Source of the DNA: Fragilariopsis cylindrus CCMP1102
Lineage: Eukaryota; Bacillariophyta; Bacillariophyceae; Bacillariales; Bacillariaceae
Direction of reading: 5' to 3'
Length of the DNA stretch: 64,000 nt
Assembly: GCA_900095095.1 (NCBI GenBank)
Contig: FMBT01000297.1
Span: 434,001-498,000 of the forward strand
The translations under genes and the position numbers were made by a program. Of the stretch, positions 12,235-54,540 are shown piece by piece (position 1 is the stretch's first letter; each line of letters starts with the position of its first letter). Under the pieces are notes generated by a model, which was given only the letters and a program-made list of their open reading frames with translations, was not told where the DNA came from and ran no database searches.

Positions 12235-13174
12235 ACAAATACGGATTCGGTCCAAATTTTTGTGACAGCGCACGCCGCGCTCACGTCACCAAAAACCAGC
12301 CAATTGCACTTAAGGACTGCCACCGGCACGTCACTTTTAGTTTTCACTTTCACTTTACTACCACGATACGAGGAACAACGGAAACACCACCGCACACAAG
12401 CGCGCTTTTAGGGATCTCGACGCAGACGTCGACGAACCTTCAAAACAGCCGGCACTACGGGCTATAAACACTATCAGCACGCGCCAGCCACTCATACCTT
12501 TTATCATTTACGGTTGGCTCGCCACACGCCGTCAGGCACAACTCATCGTTACGATCACCTTTTAACATGATAAGGCAAAACGCGAAACACCTTTTCGCTC
12601 ACAAATCACATGTGGTTTCTCCACCTGCTACCACGGGAAAGAGACAATGCCGGAATCAAACTTCCATTCCAACGCTCGACACCAGCGTACGATAAATTCA
12701 ACGCCACCGTACAACTTCAACGCCGGAGTGAATCCTTATATGCCGCTTATTTCAAATTCACGAATGTTCTAAGTACAACAACATTGCAACAAAATTTGCT
12801 ACAACCATATAGGGAACGAGCACCTTTTCTGTGCACTCTCGACTCCGTCACAGGTTACATACGAACCAACGGTAGCGTCAAACGCATTAGATCACGCAAA
12901 CGGAACCAACGCTTCCGTTAGAGCTATATTTCCTTGCCCTAACGCTCAAATGAACAACATTTGACAAAGATTTACTTAAAATATTCTTTTACACTCTAGT
13001 ATTCCACCGAAATTTTACTTGTATTTACGTTAATCCACACGACTTTCATAGCATTTCCGTCGTTCATTTCAAACCTATTAAATGTTCCGGTCTCCTTCTA
13101 GTCACAAAACAAACTTGACTTCAAATCAAAACCTTCTTTGCAACTCAAACAACATCAACGTTTTCTTAGCAATC
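12235..13174. other. C-rich sequence between the RT-like fragment and the gag-like ORF
   Basis: About 0.9 kb whose plus strand is visibly richer in C and A than the neighbouring DNA. A 103-codon frame (12610-12921) and a 90-codon antisense frame (12123-12395) are present, but neither shows a recognisable motif. The last 200 bp turn AT-rich and would serve as leader of the gag-like ORF. I read the stretch as the decayed or untranslated part of a mobile element. Confidence 0.35.
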
Positions 13175-14797
13175 ATGTCTCTTCAAAACACACTTGCATC
13201 CCTCCTTTTGTCTGAGGCACATCGCCCAGCACAGGACACAGCGTTGTTCAACACAGCGTCGTTCGAAACAAACTCGGAACATTTCCCCATCTCGGATGCT
13301 TGGTGGAACACCGGATCCATTTGCGTTGCTATGCTCCAACACGAACCAGGAGTGGTAACAGCGATGATGATCGTAGGAGTTGAAGGTGACAAACGTTACG
13401 CCATCACTCTCGAGTCCACTCCGAAACTCGTCGAATTCACCACCGACGACCTGATGCAAATCCCTATGAAGTTAGCAAAAGTCAGCACCCAAAAAGACAC
13501 AAAACTTTTTGTCCCTGCATCATGCGCCAACGGCCTCCGCCGTGGTCTTCGCATTGCCCCACTCCGAACGGAGTACTTGCATTTCGCTTTCAACGAGGAC
13601 GCCACCCCTCGCCATCCTCATGAATTCTACCATGCCCTGAAGGATATCAAGGACGGCAATGTCCGCATGATCCAAGCTTGGGCAAAGGCAGCTTGCCTTA
13701 AAACCAGCTCACTCACAATTCGAAGTGCAATCGAACTCTCTCCTACTATTCTGCCACAGTTTGCCGATCCAACCGCATACCAGAAGTACCGAGACATCTC
13801 TGATGCCTTCGTCGATGAAGATGATGCTCACGACGTCTTTGTCGCTGCACTCTTAAAGGAATTCAACCCAATCATCCGAATGGAGCCAGATAACGCCGCC
13901 GTTACTGAGGACCGTCCACAAGCTCAAACTGAACGTCCACCACAGCCAGCAGACGACGACTCCGACATCGAAGACGTCACTCCGGCATACGCAAGTCGCA
14001 ACAATCAGGACCGGCAACACACCCGCCGACCAAGTACCACGTCTCCTTACAACGAGCAACGTTCTCAGGGACGCTACCCAAACAGGTGCGTCCAATGGAA
14101 CACCAGCGACAACCTCGAATGCCCTCCACTAGCATCGGAACATTTCACAGCACGCACGAACTACGCTGCCATGGATTCCAACAGCTACAACAACAATTCT
14201 GGGACCCATCCTTGGACTCAAACTCCAAGAAACTCATGGGGAGCTCACTCGGGACCACCTTCTATCAATCGGCACAGCACAGGCACCTCCACCTTCAGGT
14301 CACGTGAACCGAACATTTTCACCACTTCCACCAGAGCAAGCTCTAGCCTGAGTCCCTTTGGCTCCAGTCCGTCATCGAGCGCGGCCGATAAACTCAAAGA
14401 ACTCAGCGAGTTGTGCACTCAACGTCCACCAACAACATCAGAAATGAACCAGTGGAACATTCTCAATGCCATGATCGGTTCACCTACTACATCGGCCACT
14501 GACGAAACCAAGAAGAATTTCTTAGGCATGCAACAGTTTAGCGTCCTTGCATGGGCAAACGTACATCCAAACGACGTAGATTACCTTAACAATCACAACA
14601 ATTACTTTTGGCCTAAACTCAATGCTTGCAAAAACAAGCCCGACGCACGGCACGTCGTACGAACGGAGATGTTCCAACATCTCATACACAAGCACCCGAA
14701 ACTCATCACCTGCCTCCACGACGATTTGATCGAGACCATCATCAACTTTCGCTTCAAACCGGTGAACCTAGAAAGCGACAAACCAACATTACCATAG
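13175..14797 (+). CDS. Gag-like protein of a retroelement, or a domesticated relative (unrecognised)
   Basis: An intronless 540-aa frame from the ATG at 13175 (an upstream in-frame ATG at 13082 would add 31 Asn/Ser-rich residues). A globular N-terminal part of about 230 residues contains 'DAWWNTGSICVAML', 'KDGNVRMIQAWAKA' and a predicted helical stretch. A disordered Pro/Ser/Thr/Asn/Arg-rich middle follows, then a helical C-terminal part ('TSEMNQWNILNAMIG', 'FSVLAWANVHPND'). Large size, no intron, GC and codon use unlike neighbours, an Arg/Gln-rich centre and a possible RT remnant just upstream point to a transposon capsid-type protein. I saw no zinc knuckle, protease or polymerase in it and found no terminal repeats, so gag is an inference. 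The long undamaged frame is notable beside the decayed sequence. Confidence 0.5.
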   Translation: MSLQNTLASLLLSEAHRPAQDTALFNTASFETNSEHFPISDAWWNTGSICVAMLQHEPGVVTAMMIVGVEGDKRYAITLESTPKLVEFTTDDLMQIPMKLAKVSTQKDTKLFVPASCANGLRRGLRIAPLRTEYLHFAFNEDATPRHPHEFYHALKDIKDGNVRMIQAWAKAACLKTSSLTIRSAIELSPTILPQFADPTAYQKYRDISDAFVDEDDAHDVFVAALLKEFNPIIRMEPDNAAVTEDRPQAQTERPPQPADDDSDIEDVTPAYASRNNQDRQHTRRPSTTSPYNEQRSQGRYPNRCVQWNTSDNLECPPLASEHFTARTNYAAMDSNSYNNNSGTHPWTQTPRNSWGAHSGPPSINRHSTGTSTFRSREPNIFTTSTRASSSLSPFGSSPSSSAADKLKELSELCTQRPPTTSEMNQWNILNAMIGSPTTSATDETKKNFLGMQQFSVLAWANVHPNDVDYLNNHNNYFWPKLNACKNKPDARHVVRTEMFQHLIHKHPKLITCLHDDLIETIINFRFKPVNLESDKPTLP

Positions 14798-15150: not shown

Positions 15151-17796
15151 ATGGTAATGAAGACATCAGCAACAACCGATGCTAAAACAGAAGATACAGA
15201 TACAGATACAGATACAGTGAATCTTCTGTTGGAACAATTAGAAGGAAATGTAAAGAAGGAACCATCAAAGATTGCTTTTTCTTGGATTGTGAATGGTGTC
15301 GATGGGGGTAGTATATCAAAATCATGTACATACCAAGAATTACAAGATCAAACAACATTCTTAGCACAAAGATTATTATTTGATGCAGGCTTGAAACGAG
15401 GAGATCGGTACGTTACGTTACGTTATGTTACATAACGTTTAGTGTGCAGTGAATTTTTTTCGAATTAAATTGAATTGAATTGAACTGAGATTTCCATTTT
15501 CTAATCGCATCATAATTGTCATTCTACTTCTCCTTCGGTAACCGACATATCATATACACACGCAACAACAACACATAACATATATAAAAGAGCACTATTG
15601 GTATATCCGCCATCTATTGATTTTACTATAGCATTCCTTGCCTGTCTTAAAGCTGGTGTAGTGGCAGTTCCGGTATTTCCACCAAATCCTGCACGACGTG
15701 ATACACTTCACATGTTTACAAAAATCACTGAAAGTAGTGGTGCTAAATTTGCATTAACGAATGTTGAATATAATCACTTTAAAAAATTAGCAAGAGCAAA
15801 AGATGCATTGACAAGATTTAAAAAACGGCAAAATGCTGACACAATAAAATGGCCTGATACGTTAGAATGGATTACAACAGATAATAATACTAAAATAGGA
15901 AGCAGTAGCAAGAAAGAAAATGATGATAATACAAAAAAACTTCCATCATCACCGAAAGCATCAGATTTAGCATTCCTCCAATACACATCAGGTAGTACGA
16001 GTGAACCAAAAGGTGTTATGATTACGCATGGCAATCTTGCACATAATCTTACCATAATCACACGTGAATTAAAAGCAAACGATGATACTGTTGTCGTATC
16101 TTGGTTACCACAATATCATGATATGGGCCTAATCGGTTCGTACCTTGGTGTACTATACTGCAGAGGGTCTGGGTATTATATGTCACCACTTTCTTTCCTA
16201 CAACGACCGATGCTTTGGATAGAAGCTGTTTCTAAATACAATGGTACGCATTTACAGGCACCTAATTTTGCTTTTAAATTAACAGCACGTAAATTCCAAC
16301 CATCCAATTATGTGAACAAACCACTCCAATTATCATCGGTACGACATATAATTAATGCAGCCGAACCGGTCGACGTGGAAGGTATGGATGCATTTTATAC
16401 TGCATTTATTCCATTTGGACTTAAGAAGGTTATATATCCAACGTACGGATTAGCAGAACATACTGTATTTGTTTGTTCCGGTGGGAAACAACAAATTAAA
16501 GTCTTGAAAGAAAAAATGGAAGTTGAAGGAATCATTTCGGTTGTTGCCGACGACGACGACGACGACGACAAAAACGATGATACTAATCCTGCTGCCTTGT
16601 CATCACGGTTGGTCGGTTGCGGATTTCCCCATCGACAAAAAGTGGATGTACGAATCGTCGATCATGAATCACATCATGAACTTCTAAAGGAACGTGTAGG
16701 AGAAATTTGGGTCCGTTCTCCCAGTAAGGCGGCGGGATATTTCCAGAAAGAAAAAGAAACAAAAGAAGAATTTAATGCAAAACTAATAGTAGTAGACATC
16801 GAGAAACAAAAAGACACTGCTCCGACTGATGATGATGTCGGCTATCTACGTACAGGTGATTTGGGATTCTTTTACAATGACGAATTATTTATTTGCGGTC
16901 GTCTTAAGGATTTGATTATTATTGCCGGGAGGAATTACTATCCACAAGATATAGAGGCCACAGCGGAAGCAATGTCTGATTTATTACGACCAGGTTGTTC
17001 TGCGGCATTTACAATCGATGTTGCTCGTGAGGGTGGTGAAGAGGTTGCACTTATTATGGAACTTAAAGAAGTTCCTGGTAATAGTGCCAGTATTCAAAGT
17101 CTTTGTGATCCATTAGCAGATCAGATCAGATCAGCTATTAATCAAGAACATTCCCTTGGTATTACACAAATTATTTTTCTGAAAACTAAAACAGTACCGA
17201 AAACGTCAAGTGGGAAGATTGCTCGAGCATGGTGTCGGAAGGGGTTCTTGGCGGGAACACTTCAGATTGTATACCGAAAATCCTTCAAGAAGAATGGCAG
17301 TACAACATTTGAAATTGAGCAAGAACAATCTAGTGAGGGAAAACCCATGTCAAACAGTACTGCTGGTCCTCTAAGCCAAGACAAAATCCAAGAATTGAGG
17401 GCTATGGGTAAGAAGGAAATCATGGACAAACTTAAAATGGATGTAGCGAAGATGGGACAGATCCCTCCAGACTCAATAGATAATGACACCGCTCTCGTTA
17501 CCATCCTCGATAGCATAACCATTTCTCAATTTAAGGGTCAGTTGGAATCTGCCTATGCAGTAAAGATGTCGGACGAATATCTGTTTGGTGAATCTGTTAC
17601 ATTAAAGAAGTTAGCTGAGGTCGTTAAACTCGGGTATGCACCAGATGACGCTGGTGGAGAAGCATCAGATTATAATAATAACAATGGCCCTTCATCGTCG
17701 TCGTCAGCATCAGCATCACAAGGAGGAAATGCGGATGGATTAGCAGGTATGCTCGGCTGCCCTCCTGGTGTAAAAGTTTGTTGTGTTATACAATAA
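15151..17796 (+). CDS. Fatty acyl-AMP ligase (FAAL-like adenylating enzyme) with C-terminal carrier domain and CaaX-like end
   Basis: Exons 15151-15407 and 15591-17796, joined as 'GDR|ALLVYPPSIDF', encode 820 aa. Adenylation signatures are clear: P-loop-like 'YTSGSTSEPKGVMITH', 'SWLPQYHDMGLIG', 'AEPVD', 'YGLAEHT', 'YLRTGDLGF' and 'GRLKDLIIIAGRNYYPQDIE', ending with the A10-type lysine region 'PKTSSGKI'. The 'WLPQYHDMGLIG' and 'GRNYYPQDIE' forms are typical of FAALs and related enzymes rather than ordinary acyl-CoA synthetases. A following domain of about 80 aa contains 'TILDSITI', matching the phosphopantetheine-attachment D-S-(L/I) motif of acyl carrier proteins. The protein ends Cys-Cys-Val-Ile-Gln; CVIQ fits a prenylation CaaX box. 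It probably activates fatty acids as acyl-AMP for transfer to its own carrier domain. An Asp7 microsatellite run sits mid-protein. Confidence 0.88.
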
Positions 17797-48779: not shown

Positions 48780-50426
48780 TTACATAGTGGATGAATCTTC
48801 AGACTGCGACAGTAGAGGCTCTTCTAAATCAACGGTCTCGTTGTTACTGATCATGTTATCATTATTGCTGTGTGTATCATTATTCCTATTACTGCTGATT
48901 TCATCGGCAATGATCGATGTTTCACAGTTGTCATTTGATGGAGGGATCATATACACAGCTATTGTCCCTAAGCAGTATAAGAATGAAGCAAAAATGAACA
49001 TTATCCCAGGTCCGAAATTGCTAGTCTTCGTTACTCCATAAATACAATTCATAATAACAGGTCCAACGGCACCTGCGAGAGCATTCAAACCAAATAATGC
49101 TCCCTGAACTTGTCCCTGCTTGTTAAATCCTACCTGCTGACTAGCTACCGAGCTTAGTATGGGGTAGTTCAATTTAGTTAATTGAGATAAACTCAATGCC
49201 GCGGTGATTGTAGATTTATTACTAGCCACTCCATACAAAAAATTATGTATTGTACCGGACAAAAACGACAGCACTAATAGCCCACGTTCACCCAACACAA
49301 ATACCAAAGGCTGCAAGCCGATTCCTTGTAATATTACTCCTAAAATTCCCATAATAAAAAACATATGGGCGAGGTCATCTTCATTCACATTAAGATGCTC
49401 CTCGATATAAAAAATCACAAGAGATGAATCTGTAGCATACACAGCAGCGCTTAGAAAGGAACCCAACGCAATTAACCGCATTGCCCCACCTTGATTCAGA
49501 ATTGTCATTTCTCGAAGAGGCCGTACAATTATAGCGCCGATAGCTCGTAGACTGTTGCATTCTCGAATACTTTTACATACGAAATTTTCACTTGGTTCGT
49601 CGGTTTCAGCTATATCCTCCTCCTCCTCCTCCTCTTCTGCTGCTTCTGTAATCATCGATGTTGGTGCTGATGACGACGTTATCAGTGTTTCCGGAAAGAA
49701 TATCATCGTGACTAGTAAAGCCATGATTGAAAATCCTAAGGATAACCAGGAAGCTGATAGATGACTCAACCAAAGTGATAAAGATGGTGCGAAAGTAAAA
49801 CCAGTGTAAAATCCAGCCATAATCATTGCAAATCTTCCTGCACGAAATGAAATTGGACAATTGTCAGATAGCGATGCAAAAAATAGAGCATTATTTGTAA
49901 TGATACCTGTAATCGCGTTCGCTGTATAATACCAATACGGTTTGATCGACTTGACCTTCAACATCATTACCAAGACAGCAGGTGCCAATATCATAAGCAA
50001 CATAGACACGATCAGTAGGTTCCTTCTTCCATGAACGTCACTATGACTTCCAATGATCGGATTGAAGATAAAGATGAAACCACTTTTAAAAAAAGATCCC
50101 CATGCTGATCCTGTTTGAGCATCGTCTTGTCCTAATATACAAGCGTCTGGTACAAGGTTTTTATCGTAGTTTGAGCATAATGTTTCACCTTGTAATCCGT
50201 GATAGAGACGTGCGTACCGATCCGATAAAATTTCTGGTACGATCCCAACGGTTGTTCCCAAACCAAAGGATATGCATACGGATATCGACAACGCTGGCAA
50301 ACCTACGTCTGATCGCACAAACGAGATAATAAACTCTCGAAGACCGGAAATAAAGGACGTAATGTTTTGGGATCTACTCTCTGGTATCTCCTCTGGTCGC
50401 ATATTGTTATTGTCATGGACCACCAT
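48780..50426 (-). CDS. MFS transporter, MFSD14/HIAT1 (tetracycline-efflux-like) type
   Basis: A single exon of 548 aa with about twelve hydrophobic segments. The A-like motif between TM2 and TM3 is 'GSHSDVHGRRNLLIVSMLL', close to the G-x-L-a-D-r-x-G-r-k-x-x-l consensus. Other blocks are 'ARLYHGLQGETLC' in the first extracytoplasmic loop, a Glu-rich central loop ('EEEEEEDIAETDEPS') and 'SVASQQVGFNKQGQVQGALF', typical of MFSD14/TetA-like members. The C-terminal tail is Asn/Asp-rich and ends with 'EEPLLSQSEDS', whose acidic dileucine pattern suggests an endomembrane location. The substrate is unknown. The frame is clean. Confidence 0.88.
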   Translation of the reverse strand: MVVHDNNNMRPEEIPESRSQNITSFISGLREFIISFVRSDVGLPALSISVCISFGLGTTVGIVPEILSDRYARLYHGLQGETLCSNYDKNLVPDACILGQDDAQTGSAWGSFFKSGFIFIFNPIIGSHSDVHGRRNLLIVSMLLMILAPAVLVMMLKVKSIKPYWYYTANAITGIITNNALFFASLSDNCPISFRAGRFAMIMAGFYTGFTFAPSLSLWLSHLSASWLSLGFSIMALLVTMIFFPETLITSSSAPTSMITEAAEEEEEEEDIAETDEPSENFVCKSIRECNSLRAIGAIIVRPLREMTILNQGGAMRLIALGSFLSAAVYATDSSLVIFYIEEHLNVNEDDLAHMFFIMGILGVILQGIGLQPLVFVLGERGLLVLSFLSGTIHNFLYGVASNKSTITAALSLSQLTKLNYPILSSVASQQVGFNKQGQVQGALFGLNALAGAVGPVIMNCIYGVTKTSNFGPGIMFIFASFLYCLGTIAVYMIPPSNDNCETSIIADEISSNRNNDTHSNNDNMISNNETVDLEEPLLSQSEDSSTM

Positions 50427-51411
50427 TATGGCCGTACAGTGTCAATAAAGTCGATATTAACTTGTGCCGTATTTATCCAAGCTATTTAGTAGTACAAGTC
50501 AAGTAATGAAGATATGATGGCATAATGTCATGGTCGTTAACTTTTTTCCTCATGATTTGGTTGAATTCTCATACAAAAAATGTCGCCAAAATTCTGTTTC
50601 ACTCTATCTTGCGAAATCTGAATCATCATCTTCCGCGAAATCAAAAATTGAGCAGAAAAACAAAATCGCCATCTCCCCCTGATGGATGAGAACCTTTAAA
50701 TTTCCTCTATTACTGTACATTGTTCCCTCCAAATCAATAGATGGATTATCAGTAAGGAATAGCAAATCTCATGGGACTGAAAGATACTGTCATATTTCCT
50801 CTTTCCTTTCCTCTCTCACAAATTGCAGAGTATTACTACTGTGCTCTCATGAAATAACTGTCCTTTGCCACCAGCCAATCATTATTTTTTGATGTTGTTG
50901 TCCCCCTTGTAGTCCCGAAGCCAAAGAAGCTGTTGCTGATGTGCCAATACTACAATTAGTTTGCGCTAAGAATCCAAGGAAACTGAGAAGGAAAGTTTTG
51001 AGAAATGGATGTATAATAAGAAAAATTCAATACAAAACGATGATTCCAATGATTATTTATTATTCAGGCACTGTATTCACAAAAATGACACTTCAAATGA
51101 TGTGATTGGGAACGGGTAGCAATATCTAACAAAATAGGGAACTAAAAGTGTCAATCTCCTCCTTCATTATCTAGGACCTACAGCATAAGCTACTCAGTAT
51201 ATATAACACTACTACTATCAAATCTGATAGAATAAATAATTTACTTCATTTTTTACGCTAAATGTTTATGTTAATCTCAGAAATATTCCATTCCATTCCA
51301 TATTATGCATATATATATATGTATACTATGAGCTTATTCATTTATATTAGCGCATTAAATCTTATGACTACATCAAGTGGTGCTTAGGCATCTAAACCAT
51401 GGACAGTCGAC
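50427..51411. other. Spacer between two minus-strand genes
   Basis: About 985 bp, AT-rich, with a (TA)n stretch near 51309-51322. No coding frame supported. Confidence 0.5.
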
Positions 51412-54400
51412 CTAAAATTCTTGTTCGTACGACTCACCACCAATAAATTCGACGTCTTTTGGTTTGTAGTTGCATAACTTGCAATTTGCGCTATTGCATT
51501 GGTGAACGTCAACGGAGGATTGTTTTTCACCTAGAGATACATCGGCTCCAGTAACCAAATTCTGTTTTCGATGATTCGATTGGTCACGTTCCGTGTCATC
51601 ATTTCTATTTGCTGCATCAAAAGTAAAATTTGATCTTCCCATCGACGATATATCATCGTTGTCAAAGAGCAGGTCACGATCCGTTTCCATATTCTCTTCA
51701 TCGATCTTTTGAGCTCCTAATACAGGTTCGAGTTGTGGTGGGTATATTTCCTCCATCATTGCGTTTTGGGATTCGCCATCGGATGTGTAGCCTCCATCAG
51801 ATATGATTACAGAGTGTTGGCACCTATCAGAATCGCTATCTCCTTCCATGATACAGCTCATTGCTTCGGGTTCGTCTAGCCTGTATGAATTTGGAAGCAT
51901 TGCAGAAAAGGGAGTTTCTTTTAGATGAAAACCATCATTTGGTTGAGTAGACGTCATGTGAGATCCCGTCATGTGGGATCCTCCAGGCCCGAGAGTGCTA
52001 ACTCCGTCTGGTTGACTCCTTCGCATTCGAAAGATTCCTAGCACCAATGCGGCAAGCACGAAGACGCCAAGTGCGGCGAAGGCAGTAACAGCTCCGGTAG
52101 AAAAGGAGCCGTCAATCCCTTGCTGCTTGTCGGTAATCACGACACTGCCATCCGAGATTCCAGAGGCATCAATCAGTTCTGGTTCCAAGTACCAGACTTG
52201 AATAATTGTATCCATAGATGGAAAATCACTTCTTTGCATGGTATTACGGATAGCATACAACATATCATTAATCGCAACTTGCCCCTTTGCATCCCTTACT
52301 AAATACATTACCATACGTCCAAAGTAAGTTTCACAAAATCCACCACCAGCTGTTGTCGAGTTGGAAAAACATACCACTTCTTCATTTTTGGTATCGATGG
52401 GCATGTAGTCAAGTCCCGCGATATCATCTTCAAATAGATGACGGTGACGGAAGTATTTTCTAGTTGGTATCTTATTACAATTTAAGACCTCTGAAACTAG
52501 TTTCAGCTCCATGATAGCCATGGTTTCTGTTTTTTGTTTCTCTGTCAAGCCAGGAGAAAATTCGACGGCATAAATCCAGTTAATATTCACTGACTTGTCT
52601 GGTGATTTATCTGGACAAAATTCTATGATAATATGTGACAGTAAGATAGATAAATGAGATAAGGCGAAGTTTTCCATAAGATAGACTGATCAAAACATAC
52701 AGAAATCAAACAGATCTTTCAACGTACCAGCTGTATTATCGACGTTCCCATCGATGTTTACTGTGACTTCTCCATCTGTGTTAGATCCAGTGAGGCCTTC
52801 TTCTTCTTCTTCTTCTCCTCCTCCATTATTTCCGTTACCAGTTCCTTCATTGTTCCCAACGACGGAATTATCAGAGTCATCTCCTCCAACGCCAACGCCA
52901 TTTCCATCGCTTTCACCGTTCTCGTTTCCACTTGAACTTCCACCCGTTGGGTCCACTTCGTCGGTCTCGCTTTCACTTCCATCAGTCTCGCTTCCACTTC
53001 CACCCGTTGGGTCGACTTCATCGGCATCGCTTCCAGTTCCATCAGTGGGATTCCCTCCATTATTTTCGCCTGAAGTTCCATTAACAAGATCGACTGCACC
53101 AGTGGTCCCTGTCGTTTCGTCACTAGGGGCTGCCTGGTTTTCTTCGTCAGTGTCGCTTCCGTTTTCATTAGTTAGGCCATCTTCACCTGAGGCATTACCA
53201 GTACCGGAGCCATCTTCACCTGAGGCATTACCAGTACCGGAGCCATCTTCACCTGAGTCATTACCAGTACCGGAGCCATCTTCACCTGAGTCATTACCAG
53301 TACCGGATTCAATAGACGCACCTCCATTTGCATCACTTCCAACTTCTCCTTCGTTGGTATCGTTCCCGCTCTCATTTCCTACAGTACCGTTATCTTCAAT
53401 TGATGCATCGTTCTCACCTTCGATTCCGGTGGATGATCCTACATCGTTACCTTCTCCTCCAATTCCTTCTGATGCGTCTATTCCACTAGTAGAATCTCCT
53501 TCATTTCCATCTCCATCTCCACCATTCACATTTCCAATGGAAATAGAAGGATCGTTCACTAAATTGCTGTTATCTTCATTTGACACATCGTTATCATTCT
53601 CGGTACCAATTACGTTTTCAGTAGAAGATCCACCTGCTTCATTGCCTTCTCCATCAGTACCTAGAGATGGCAAATCTCCTGTTCCAGCTCCTGTGCCAGA
53701 GCCAGTGGAGGAGGAAGAAGAAGACCCCCTTCACCATTATTTCCGCCTTCGGTTACTACCGATACGTCAACAATAGGTCCATCTTCGTTAACTTCTACTA
53801 CTACTATTCCAGTTACGCCGCCCGAGGGATTACCATTTTCATCACTTTCGTCTTGGACGGAAGATTCTTCCCCGTTGGTTGTACTAGTAGTATACCATTA
53901 CCACTCTCATTATCGATAGTAACAACTTCAATACCTACACCACCGATACCATTATTTGATCCATCTAAAGTAGGTATGTTGTCACCACGTCCTGTCGTTG
54001 GTTCTAAATTGATTTGAATGGAAGAAGAAGAAGGACTTTGTGTAATCATAATTTGAACCGGACCACCTACATTATTGGATGAGGAGGGTGAAGATGCCGG
54101 TGAGGATTCAGCATCATCGGATGGTACTGGACGTTCTCCAGGGATTGGAACTCTTTGATTTGTGGTTCATCAGGATTGGTAGTGGGAACAGGAATGGGAG
54201 ATGTGACAGGAGATGTGGTTGGTTCAAATGTGGTAGGATCTTCGGTTTCAGTTTCATCGCGACTTTCTCCGTAACTGTTTTCGGGGTACTGATTTTCATT
54301 GTTATAATAACCATGATGTTTCCCTGCCTTACCGCCTTTCCCTGCTTTTCCACTTCTACCATTCGGAATCACGCGGCCATTGGTATTATAACCAACACCC

Positions 54401-54540
54401 AAACGTCGTTGTGAAGAAGAAGTACTTCCTCTGCTCCGTCTATAGGATGAAGATTCCACCGCCTCAATGTATGACGATGGAGAAATGATAAACAAAAGAC
54501 TGACAATGGTCGTACTAACAAGAACGGAAAGATACATCAT
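51412..54540 (-). CDS. Type I membrane protein: signal peptide, KxxK cluster, acidic Gly/Ser/Asp repeats, one TM; three apparent 1-base losses
   Basis: Starts 54540. The signal peptide is 'MMYLSVLVSTTIVSLLFIIS' with cleavage likely after 'YIEA'. Then come Arg/Ser-rich sequence with 'RRL', a lysine cluster spaced every third residue ('GKAGKGGKAGKHHG'), a Pro/Thr stretch, and about 400 residues of Gly/Ser/Asp/Glu/Asn low complexity. That stretch includes four 11-residue repeats of the type GTGNDSGEDGS. One intron (52623-52729, GTACGT donor) leads to a Cys-containing globular domain ('NWIYAVEFSPGLTEKQKTET'...'GMVMYLVRD'-like), a TM helix ('AVTAFAALGVFVLAALVLGI') and an acidic cytoplasmic tail. 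Frame changes near 54155, 53894 and 53727 are each one missing base. The layout recalls diatom cell-wall and silica-vesicle membrane proteins; no named family was recognised. Confidence 0.75.
53177..53308 (-). repeat. Four tandem 33-bp coding repeats
   Basis: Units start at 53177, 53210, 53243 and 53276; two read ...GAGGCATT... and two ...GAGTCATT..., changing one Ala to Asp in the encoded 11-residue repeat. Confidence 0.92.

Follow-up and report, generated by a model that had tools for sequence, protein, structure and literature searches.

The described systems closest to the gene reported here are silicanin-1, together with the SiMat7-like proteins of diatoms, and the silicalemma associated proteins (SAP1-3). 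Silicanin-1 (Sin1, or SiMat7) is described as having a signal peptide, an RRL, a lumenal region that is of low complexity and bears cysteines, one helix and a cytosolic end (PMC5525289; PMC5501833); its NQ-rich domain holds 18 conserved cysteines, the helix is preceded by the heptapeptide GGQKFAL, and 20 residues make up the cytosolic end (PMC5525289). The SAPs have been described with a signal peptide, an RXL, a Ser/Gly-rich stretch, one helix and a conserved cytosolic part (PMC5647440; PMC10503012). This conserved part is 28 residues long in T. pseudonana or 23 in C. cryptica and lies just behind the helix, and the SAPs have no KXXK (PMC5647440); the C-terminal region in C. cryptica is 58-68 residues long (PMC5647440). 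Experiments place Sin1, SAP1 and SAP3 at the silicalemma, and for Sin1 and SAP3 the lumenal part is reported to stay in the silica (PMC5525289; PMC5647440). SAP2-GFP was reported to be cytosolic, although SAP2 is a member of the SAP family (PMC5647440), and a SAP-type layout is therefore no guarantee of location.

Lysine clusters have been used to describe a further set of silica-associated proteins. In CinW2, clusters of four lysines in 11-12 residues are reported, LER3-W2 being one with 11 residues and four lysines (PMC9650480). The rule of the silaffin-like screen combines a signal peptide with repeated KXXK in which X is S or G (PMC5501833), whilst the pentalysine rule asks for five lysines in 12-14 residues (PMC5501833; PMC9650480). 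One published lysine-cluster screen admitted only proteins that lack a membrane helix (PMC9650480), so that membrane-bound proteins like the one described below would have escaped it.

The window, a stretch of 64,000 nucleotides of the Fragilariopsis cylindrus genome, carries on its minus strand a gene that runs from 54540 to 51412, with its parts in the order signal peptide, RRL, lysine cluster, PT-like stretch, acidic stretch, intron, four-cysteine domain, helix and acidic tail (Table 1). Its product is predicted to be a long type I (single-span) membrane protein. An original prediction, made from the letters of the DNA, had proposed a type I membrane protein with the marks of silica proteins, and this agrees with what was found: the signals and one helix are present, and the genome encodes silicon transporters. 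The silicon transporter profile PF03842 gave 27 rows in this genome, all over the cut-off and the best at 757 bits, whilst none of 14 control genomes reached it; on account of these matches, the genome is taken to be that of a silicon-using alga and, its other features considered, most probably of a diatom. Stops interrupt two of the matches (C639:2183-2890 and C77:14459-14959), which again points to single-base steps or broken copies within the assembly.

Table 1. Features of the window gene, from start to stop codon (positions are those of the window).
Feature	Position	Strand	Basis
Start codon and signal peptide (residues 1-27)	54460..54540	(-)	Cleavage site by eye; frame score
RRL (residues 45-47), possible RXL cleavage site	54400..54408	(-)	Sequence; RXL as described in PMC5525289 and PMC5647440
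Lysine cluster KAGKGGKAGK (residues 65-74), 4 Lys in 10 residues	54319..54348	(-)	Sequence and shuffle test
PT/PS-like stretch	54163..54240	(-)	Reading of sequence
Three frame changes	53664..54168	(-)	Codon scores and stops per frame
Acidic Gly/Ser/Asp/Asn stretch, 334 residues	52728..53730	(-)	Sequence composition
33-bp tandem repeat, 4.0 copies, 98% matches	53176..53307	(-)	Repeat search
Intron, 105 nt, GT-AG, in-frame stop inside	52623..52727	(-)	Splice sites, stops
Four-cysteine lumenal domain, 154 residues	52162..52622	(-)	Sequence
Single membrane helix, then RMRR (positive side inside)	52030..52089	(-)	Hydropathy
Cytosolic tail, 205 residues, pI 4.42	51415..52029	(-)	Sequence
Conserved tail motif DVHQCNSANCKLC (DVHxCxSxxCxxC)	51472..51510	(-)	Genome search and profile tests
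Stop codon	51412..51414	(-)	Sequence

At the membrane end, the Cys-bearing domain, single TM helix and acidic tail that had been predicted were all recovered. All four cysteines of the lumenal part lie inside the domain, and hydropathy of the last exon indicates one helix, with a best 19-mer of 2.61 and a next best elsewhere of 0.72. The further prediction that the layout resembles nothing that can be named is not supported, since Sin1 and the SAPs have a comparable order of parts (PMC5525289; PMC5647440). With silicanin-1 the window gene shares the form of a type I membrane protein with a signal peptide and RRL, a cysteine-bearing lumenal part, a helix and a cytosolic end; it differs in having 4 cysteines rather than 18, a Gly/Ser/Asp-rich rather than NQ-rich composition, and a tail of 205 rather than 20 residues. 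The GGQKFAL heptapeptide is absent from the three frames of the gene strand. With the SAPs it shares the signal peptide, the RXL, a Ser/Gly-rich stretch (S+G 0.38) and the single helix, but it is unlike the SAPs in its 205-residue tail, in a tail motif that stands 173 residues behind the helix and in the presence of a K-x-x-K cluster. Features that define silicanin, and others that define the SAPs, are thus missing from the window gene.

The N-terminal signals recall a different set of proteins. A signal peptide with an RRL close behind had been predicted and both are in place, the signal peptide as judged by eye, its best 15-mer scoring 2.43 on the Kyte-Doolittle scale. The lysine cluster had been predicted as K-x-x-K four times in a row; the cluster is there, whereas its four lysines make three K-x-x-K steps. 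The spacing K..K..K..K arose in 1 of 20000 shuffles of the 102 residues behind the signal peptide. At most 4 lysines fall within 14 residues, one short of the five asked for by the pentalysine rule (PMC5501833; PMC9650480), and of the three steps only the middle one, KGGK, follows the strict KXXK rule with S or G as X. Silaffins, cingulins and silaffin-like proteins resemble the window gene in their signal peptide, in an RXL (in most of them) and in a K-x-x-K cluster, the window cluster being like LER3-W2 of CinW2. In contrast, silaffins are described as soluble (PMC5647440) and both silaffins and cingulins as having one cysteine or none (PMC5525289), whilst the window gene has a helix and a four-cysteine domain.

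Hundreds of acidic Gly/Ser/Asp residues with a 33-bp expansion had also been predicted, and both the stretch and the repeat are confirmed at the lengths and copy number given in Table 1. The main stretch is 23% D+E with S+G at 0.38, and it has no lysine and a single arginine, which is its first codon, stands beside a frame switch and is hence uncertain. Its S/T-x-x-D/E sites number 26 against a shuffle mean of 18, a count reached by 25 of 2000 shuffles. Silacidins are small peptides, acidic and rich in serine. The window gene shares with them an acidic Ser-rich stretch behind an RXL site (silacidins are listed among RXL proteins in PMC5647440), but silacidins are described there as soluble and are small, and in the window gene the stretch is long and tethered to a membrane domain.

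The window gene is, by comparison of tail sequences, not alone: its tail motif is common to four other genes of the genome. The original prediction, which treated a single gene and made no mention of this motif, is thereby widened to a family. A search of its own genome with the last exon found matches to residues 343-396 in C134 (54% identity, E 7.9e-13 over 54 residues) and C691 (52%, E 1.0e-11), and DVHxCxSxxCxxC is present in five genes, namely the window gene (W), A (C134/C691), B (C686/C297), C (C679) and E (C460/C695), the paired contigs of A, B and E being taken as haplotypes. The motif stands behind the helix in all five, 52 to 173 residues away, the window gene having the longest distance. 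It occurs once in the six frames of the window, and a looser form was found once in total across 20 shuffled windows. Some of the single searches that link the family are weak (A to B, E 0.057 and 0.082; B to E, E 0.018 and 0.022), the reverse step from E to B gave E 0.0014 and the step from B to C is clear (E 1.5e-7). Leave-one-out profiles of the tails, whose blocks were aligned by hand after the sequences had been seen, scored 31.5 bits for A, 33.2 for B, 26.6 for C and 30.2 for E, and the window tail reached 29.9 bits against the profile of five other tails; the best of 20000 shuffles per tail gave 10.7 to 12.7 bits across the five genes, and at most 11.2 for the window tail. When the closest sister, A, was left out and the profile was built from B, C and E only, the window tail still scored 20.7 bits, reached by 0 of 20000 shuffles (maximum 12.0). 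The window gene would accordingly be placed in a family of its own, defined by the cytosolic tail motif DVHxCxSxxCxxC; provided that its product does sit at the silica vesicle, it would still work as Sin1 and the SAPs do.

In a sixth gene, D (the second C679 locus, present on C430 too), the tail is worn: it scored 7.8 bits, reached by 6 of 20000 shuffles, and D was left out of the five tail genes because of this score. Genes C and D lie ~21 kb apart on C679, near 183 kb and 205 kb; by eye, D has no continuous frame, and the same sequence is found on C430 in the stretches compared. A genome search for relatives of C returned 47 rows, of which five are the family (C679 itself, C686, C297, C430 and the second C679 locus) and the remainder mostly matched the lysine and PS-PT repeat part alone. 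A synthetic motif query recovered the copies of W, A and B and missed those of C and E. Three further candidates were set aside: the match to C559 (E 0.036) lies only around the helix and no motif was found in its locus, and those to C97 (E 1.1) and C278 (E 0.44) were taken as chance. Beyond this genome, the pattern matched 11 times in viral contigs and 20 times in contigs of prokaryote genomes, and no match was confirmed. No description of a DVHxCxSxxCxxC tail was found in the literature searched, which was thin in subscription papers; similar tails may occur in other diatoms.

The sister genes vary in their lumenal halves, their signal peptides having been judged by eye. Gene C is a single open frame of 564 codons (552 from Met); its signal peptide and RRL are followed by a lysine cluster spaced K-x-x-x-K, by PS repeats and by a region with four cysteines, before the helix and tail. 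Gene B, in two exons, encodes 690 residues in one copy and 698 in the other, and a signal peptide and RRL, a dense lysine cluster, PT repeats and cysteines lead up to its helix and tail; the maximum number of lysines per 14 residues is 7 in B and 5 in C. Gene A (C134) has four exons with standard splice sites in one frame, encoding a signal peptide, RKL, cysteine domain, helix and tail, and has no lysine cluster. In gene E, two cysteine-rich repeats precede the helix and tail, and this lumenal part is unlike those of the other tail genes. The resemblance of its repeats to ShK is faint (E 0.35, below the cut-off), and Pfam searches of the sister genes gave only rows below the curated cut-offs (PT repeat in C at E 0.013 being another example). 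In the PDB sequence search, C gave one row (E 0.94) and a two-sequence profile four rows (E 0.31-0.40), all taken as chance. A and B look like working genes under selection because their copies differ mostly at silent sites, with a pN/pS of 0.16 over 1119 codons, counted for these two genes only and leaving out exons 2 and 3 of A.

In the window gene itself the coding frame changes. By codon scores, for which nine other ORFs of the window served as training set, it runs 0, 2, 1, 0 along the gene; in each piece the coding frame outscores the other two, a second frame being open at places with a low score. Bounded by stops, the switches lie at 54168-54070 (0 to 2), 53899-53816 (2 to 1) and 53732-53664 (1 to 0), all in the same sense and each equal to one missing base. 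Three lost bases had been proposed, and three steps in one sense are indeed seen; that the bases were lost by error is likely and stops short of proof, since a single copy of the locus was found when the assembly (67.9 Mb, 818 contigs) was searched. The steps could instead be real mutations in a pseudogene or broken allele, given that all three fall within ~500 nt, that none falls in the exon with the domain, helix and tail, and that the assembly has one copy of the locus; this explanation is judged unlikely, for coding scores are strong in every piece, the last frame stays open for 425 codons, and one-base differences also separate C691 from C134 and C695 from C460, where the partner copy is open. 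Between the copies of gene A, a one-base length difference lies within exon 2 (by eye), exons 1, 3 and 4 being gap-free. Between those of gene E, the C695 frame is broken where that of C460 is open, and 13 of 16 gaps are multiples of three, the other three being single-base gaps of which two stand close together and cancel. The copies of gene B (C686 and C297) differ by two gaps, of 18 and 6, and by one pair that cancels. The assembly thus does contain lone single-base steps, amid differences that keep the frame. Assembly error seems the likelier cause of the three steps because sister genes show lone one-base steps in one copy with the frame open in the other.

That the N-terminal and membrane parts form one gene, as had been proposed, is probably right, since the C679 paralogue carries its parts in the same order and within one open frame, an argument for joining the window pieces. 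The GT-AG intron at 52727-52623, which the original prediction did not include, connects the acidic stretch and the four-cysteine domain in frame. The alternative of two adjacent genes, a secreted lysine/acidic protein and a membrane protein starting at its own Met, was given more weight on account of a Met at 52677 followed by a fairly hydrophobic stretch, the frame of the last exon being open upstream into the intron; the best 15-mer after this Met scores 1.93, below the 2.43 of the signal peptide at 54540, and the stretch might be a weaker second signal peptide. It is nonetheless considered very unlikely, as the whole order stands in one frame in C, in two exons in B and in four in A, and the intron joins the two halves in frame.

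The four-cysteine domain of this single gene has perhaps, by eye, a beta-alpha-beta-beta-alpha-beta order, and a SEA-like or ferredoxin-like fold is only a thought, likewise formed by eye. The last exon gave no Pfam domain, and the N-terminal piece only three Pfam rows, all below the cut-offs; the PDB sequence search gave no match for the window protein. Pairwise shuffles showed the lumenal domains to be similar for A and C (score reached by 0 to 3 of 400 shuffles) and for C and D (0 to 1 of 400), whilst A against D, and B against any other, gave no significant similarity. The window domain was not significantly similar to those of A, B, C or D, with 30 to 201 of 400 shuffles reaching the score, nor in a profile test (3990 of 20000), which failed also for A (1161 of 20000) and C (3048 of 20000) and gave no match for D. 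Alignment by hand of its four cysteines with those of A, C and D was consequently set aside, its homology being unsupported by the shuffle and profile tests. The window domain may still share the fold of the gene A domain, which we infer from the tail they have in common, the four cysteines and the matching position ahead of the helix.

Taken as a type I membrane protein of this diatom tail-motif family, the product of the window gene is somewhat more likely to work at the silica deposition vesicle, in the manner proposed here, than to work otherwise. The signal peptide would bring the chain into the secretory pathway, and a protease would cleave after the RRL. The lumen of the silica deposition vesicle would then contain the lysine cluster and the acidic stretch, which is probably phosphorylated, and their charges would bind long-chain polyamines and silica-forming proteins (silaffins) at the membrane face; a comparable gathering role has been proposed for the phosphoserines of SAPs (PMC5647440). 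Beside the membrane, the domain, presumably disulphide-bonded, would anchor the chain or bind a partner. The tail, with its clustered cysteines, would bind a cytosolic partner responsible either for sorting the protein or for relaying positional information to the vesicle. Such a partner appears likely because nothing but the motif, with its fixed DVH and three spaced cysteines, is shared by all five genes; the motif cysteines might bind metal or carry a lipid.

For the vesicle role as such, the analysis suggests about even odds or slightly better. The tail alone is no proof of it, since A has no lysine cluster and E a different lumenal part. The same two genes would suit a protein of the plasma membrane or cell surface that relies on the same secretory signals, is concerned with adhesion, sensing or mating and has no part in making silica, its tail serving generally as a signal for endocytosis or sorting: in E the motif follows a quite different lumenal part, and mucin-like acidic stretches beside the membrane are common on cell surfaces. 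The lysine clusters of B and C and the RXL behind the signal peptide in W, B and C speak against such a protein, which is regarded as rather improbable.

The family bears on how the interior of the diatom cell tells the silica vesicle where to deposit glass: the model of dAnk function, according to a 2024 paper, assumes transmembrane proteins of the SDV that are not yet identified (PMC11385223). A family with one half like a silica protein in the lumen and a long cytosolic tail with a motif is a direct candidate for this transmembrane link. On a bolder and doubtful reading, DVHxCxSxxCxxC would be a shared cytosolic docking module of silica-vesicle membrane proteins, linking dAnk-type pattern proteins across the membrane to silica, and each lumenal part would supply its own lysine-rich or acidic silica-forming segment. 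The tail motif is short enough for mutation.

Elsewhere in the window, a 571-residue ORF at 13082-14797 (+) has no Pfam match at E 0.001; the 12-16 kb region around it is higher in GC (0.48 at 12-14 kb) and strongly skewed in both GC and AT, and the ORF is possibly a mobile-element gene. Rfam and tRNA scans of the 64-kb window found nothing. An AMP-binding enzyme is encoded at 15505-17796 (+) (E 4.9e-55), with a DIP2-like end just over the cut-off (E 3.4e-6). The next long ORF downstream of the window gene, on the same strand, encodes a Major facilitator family transporter (48780-50441 (-); PF07690, E 7.2e-22).
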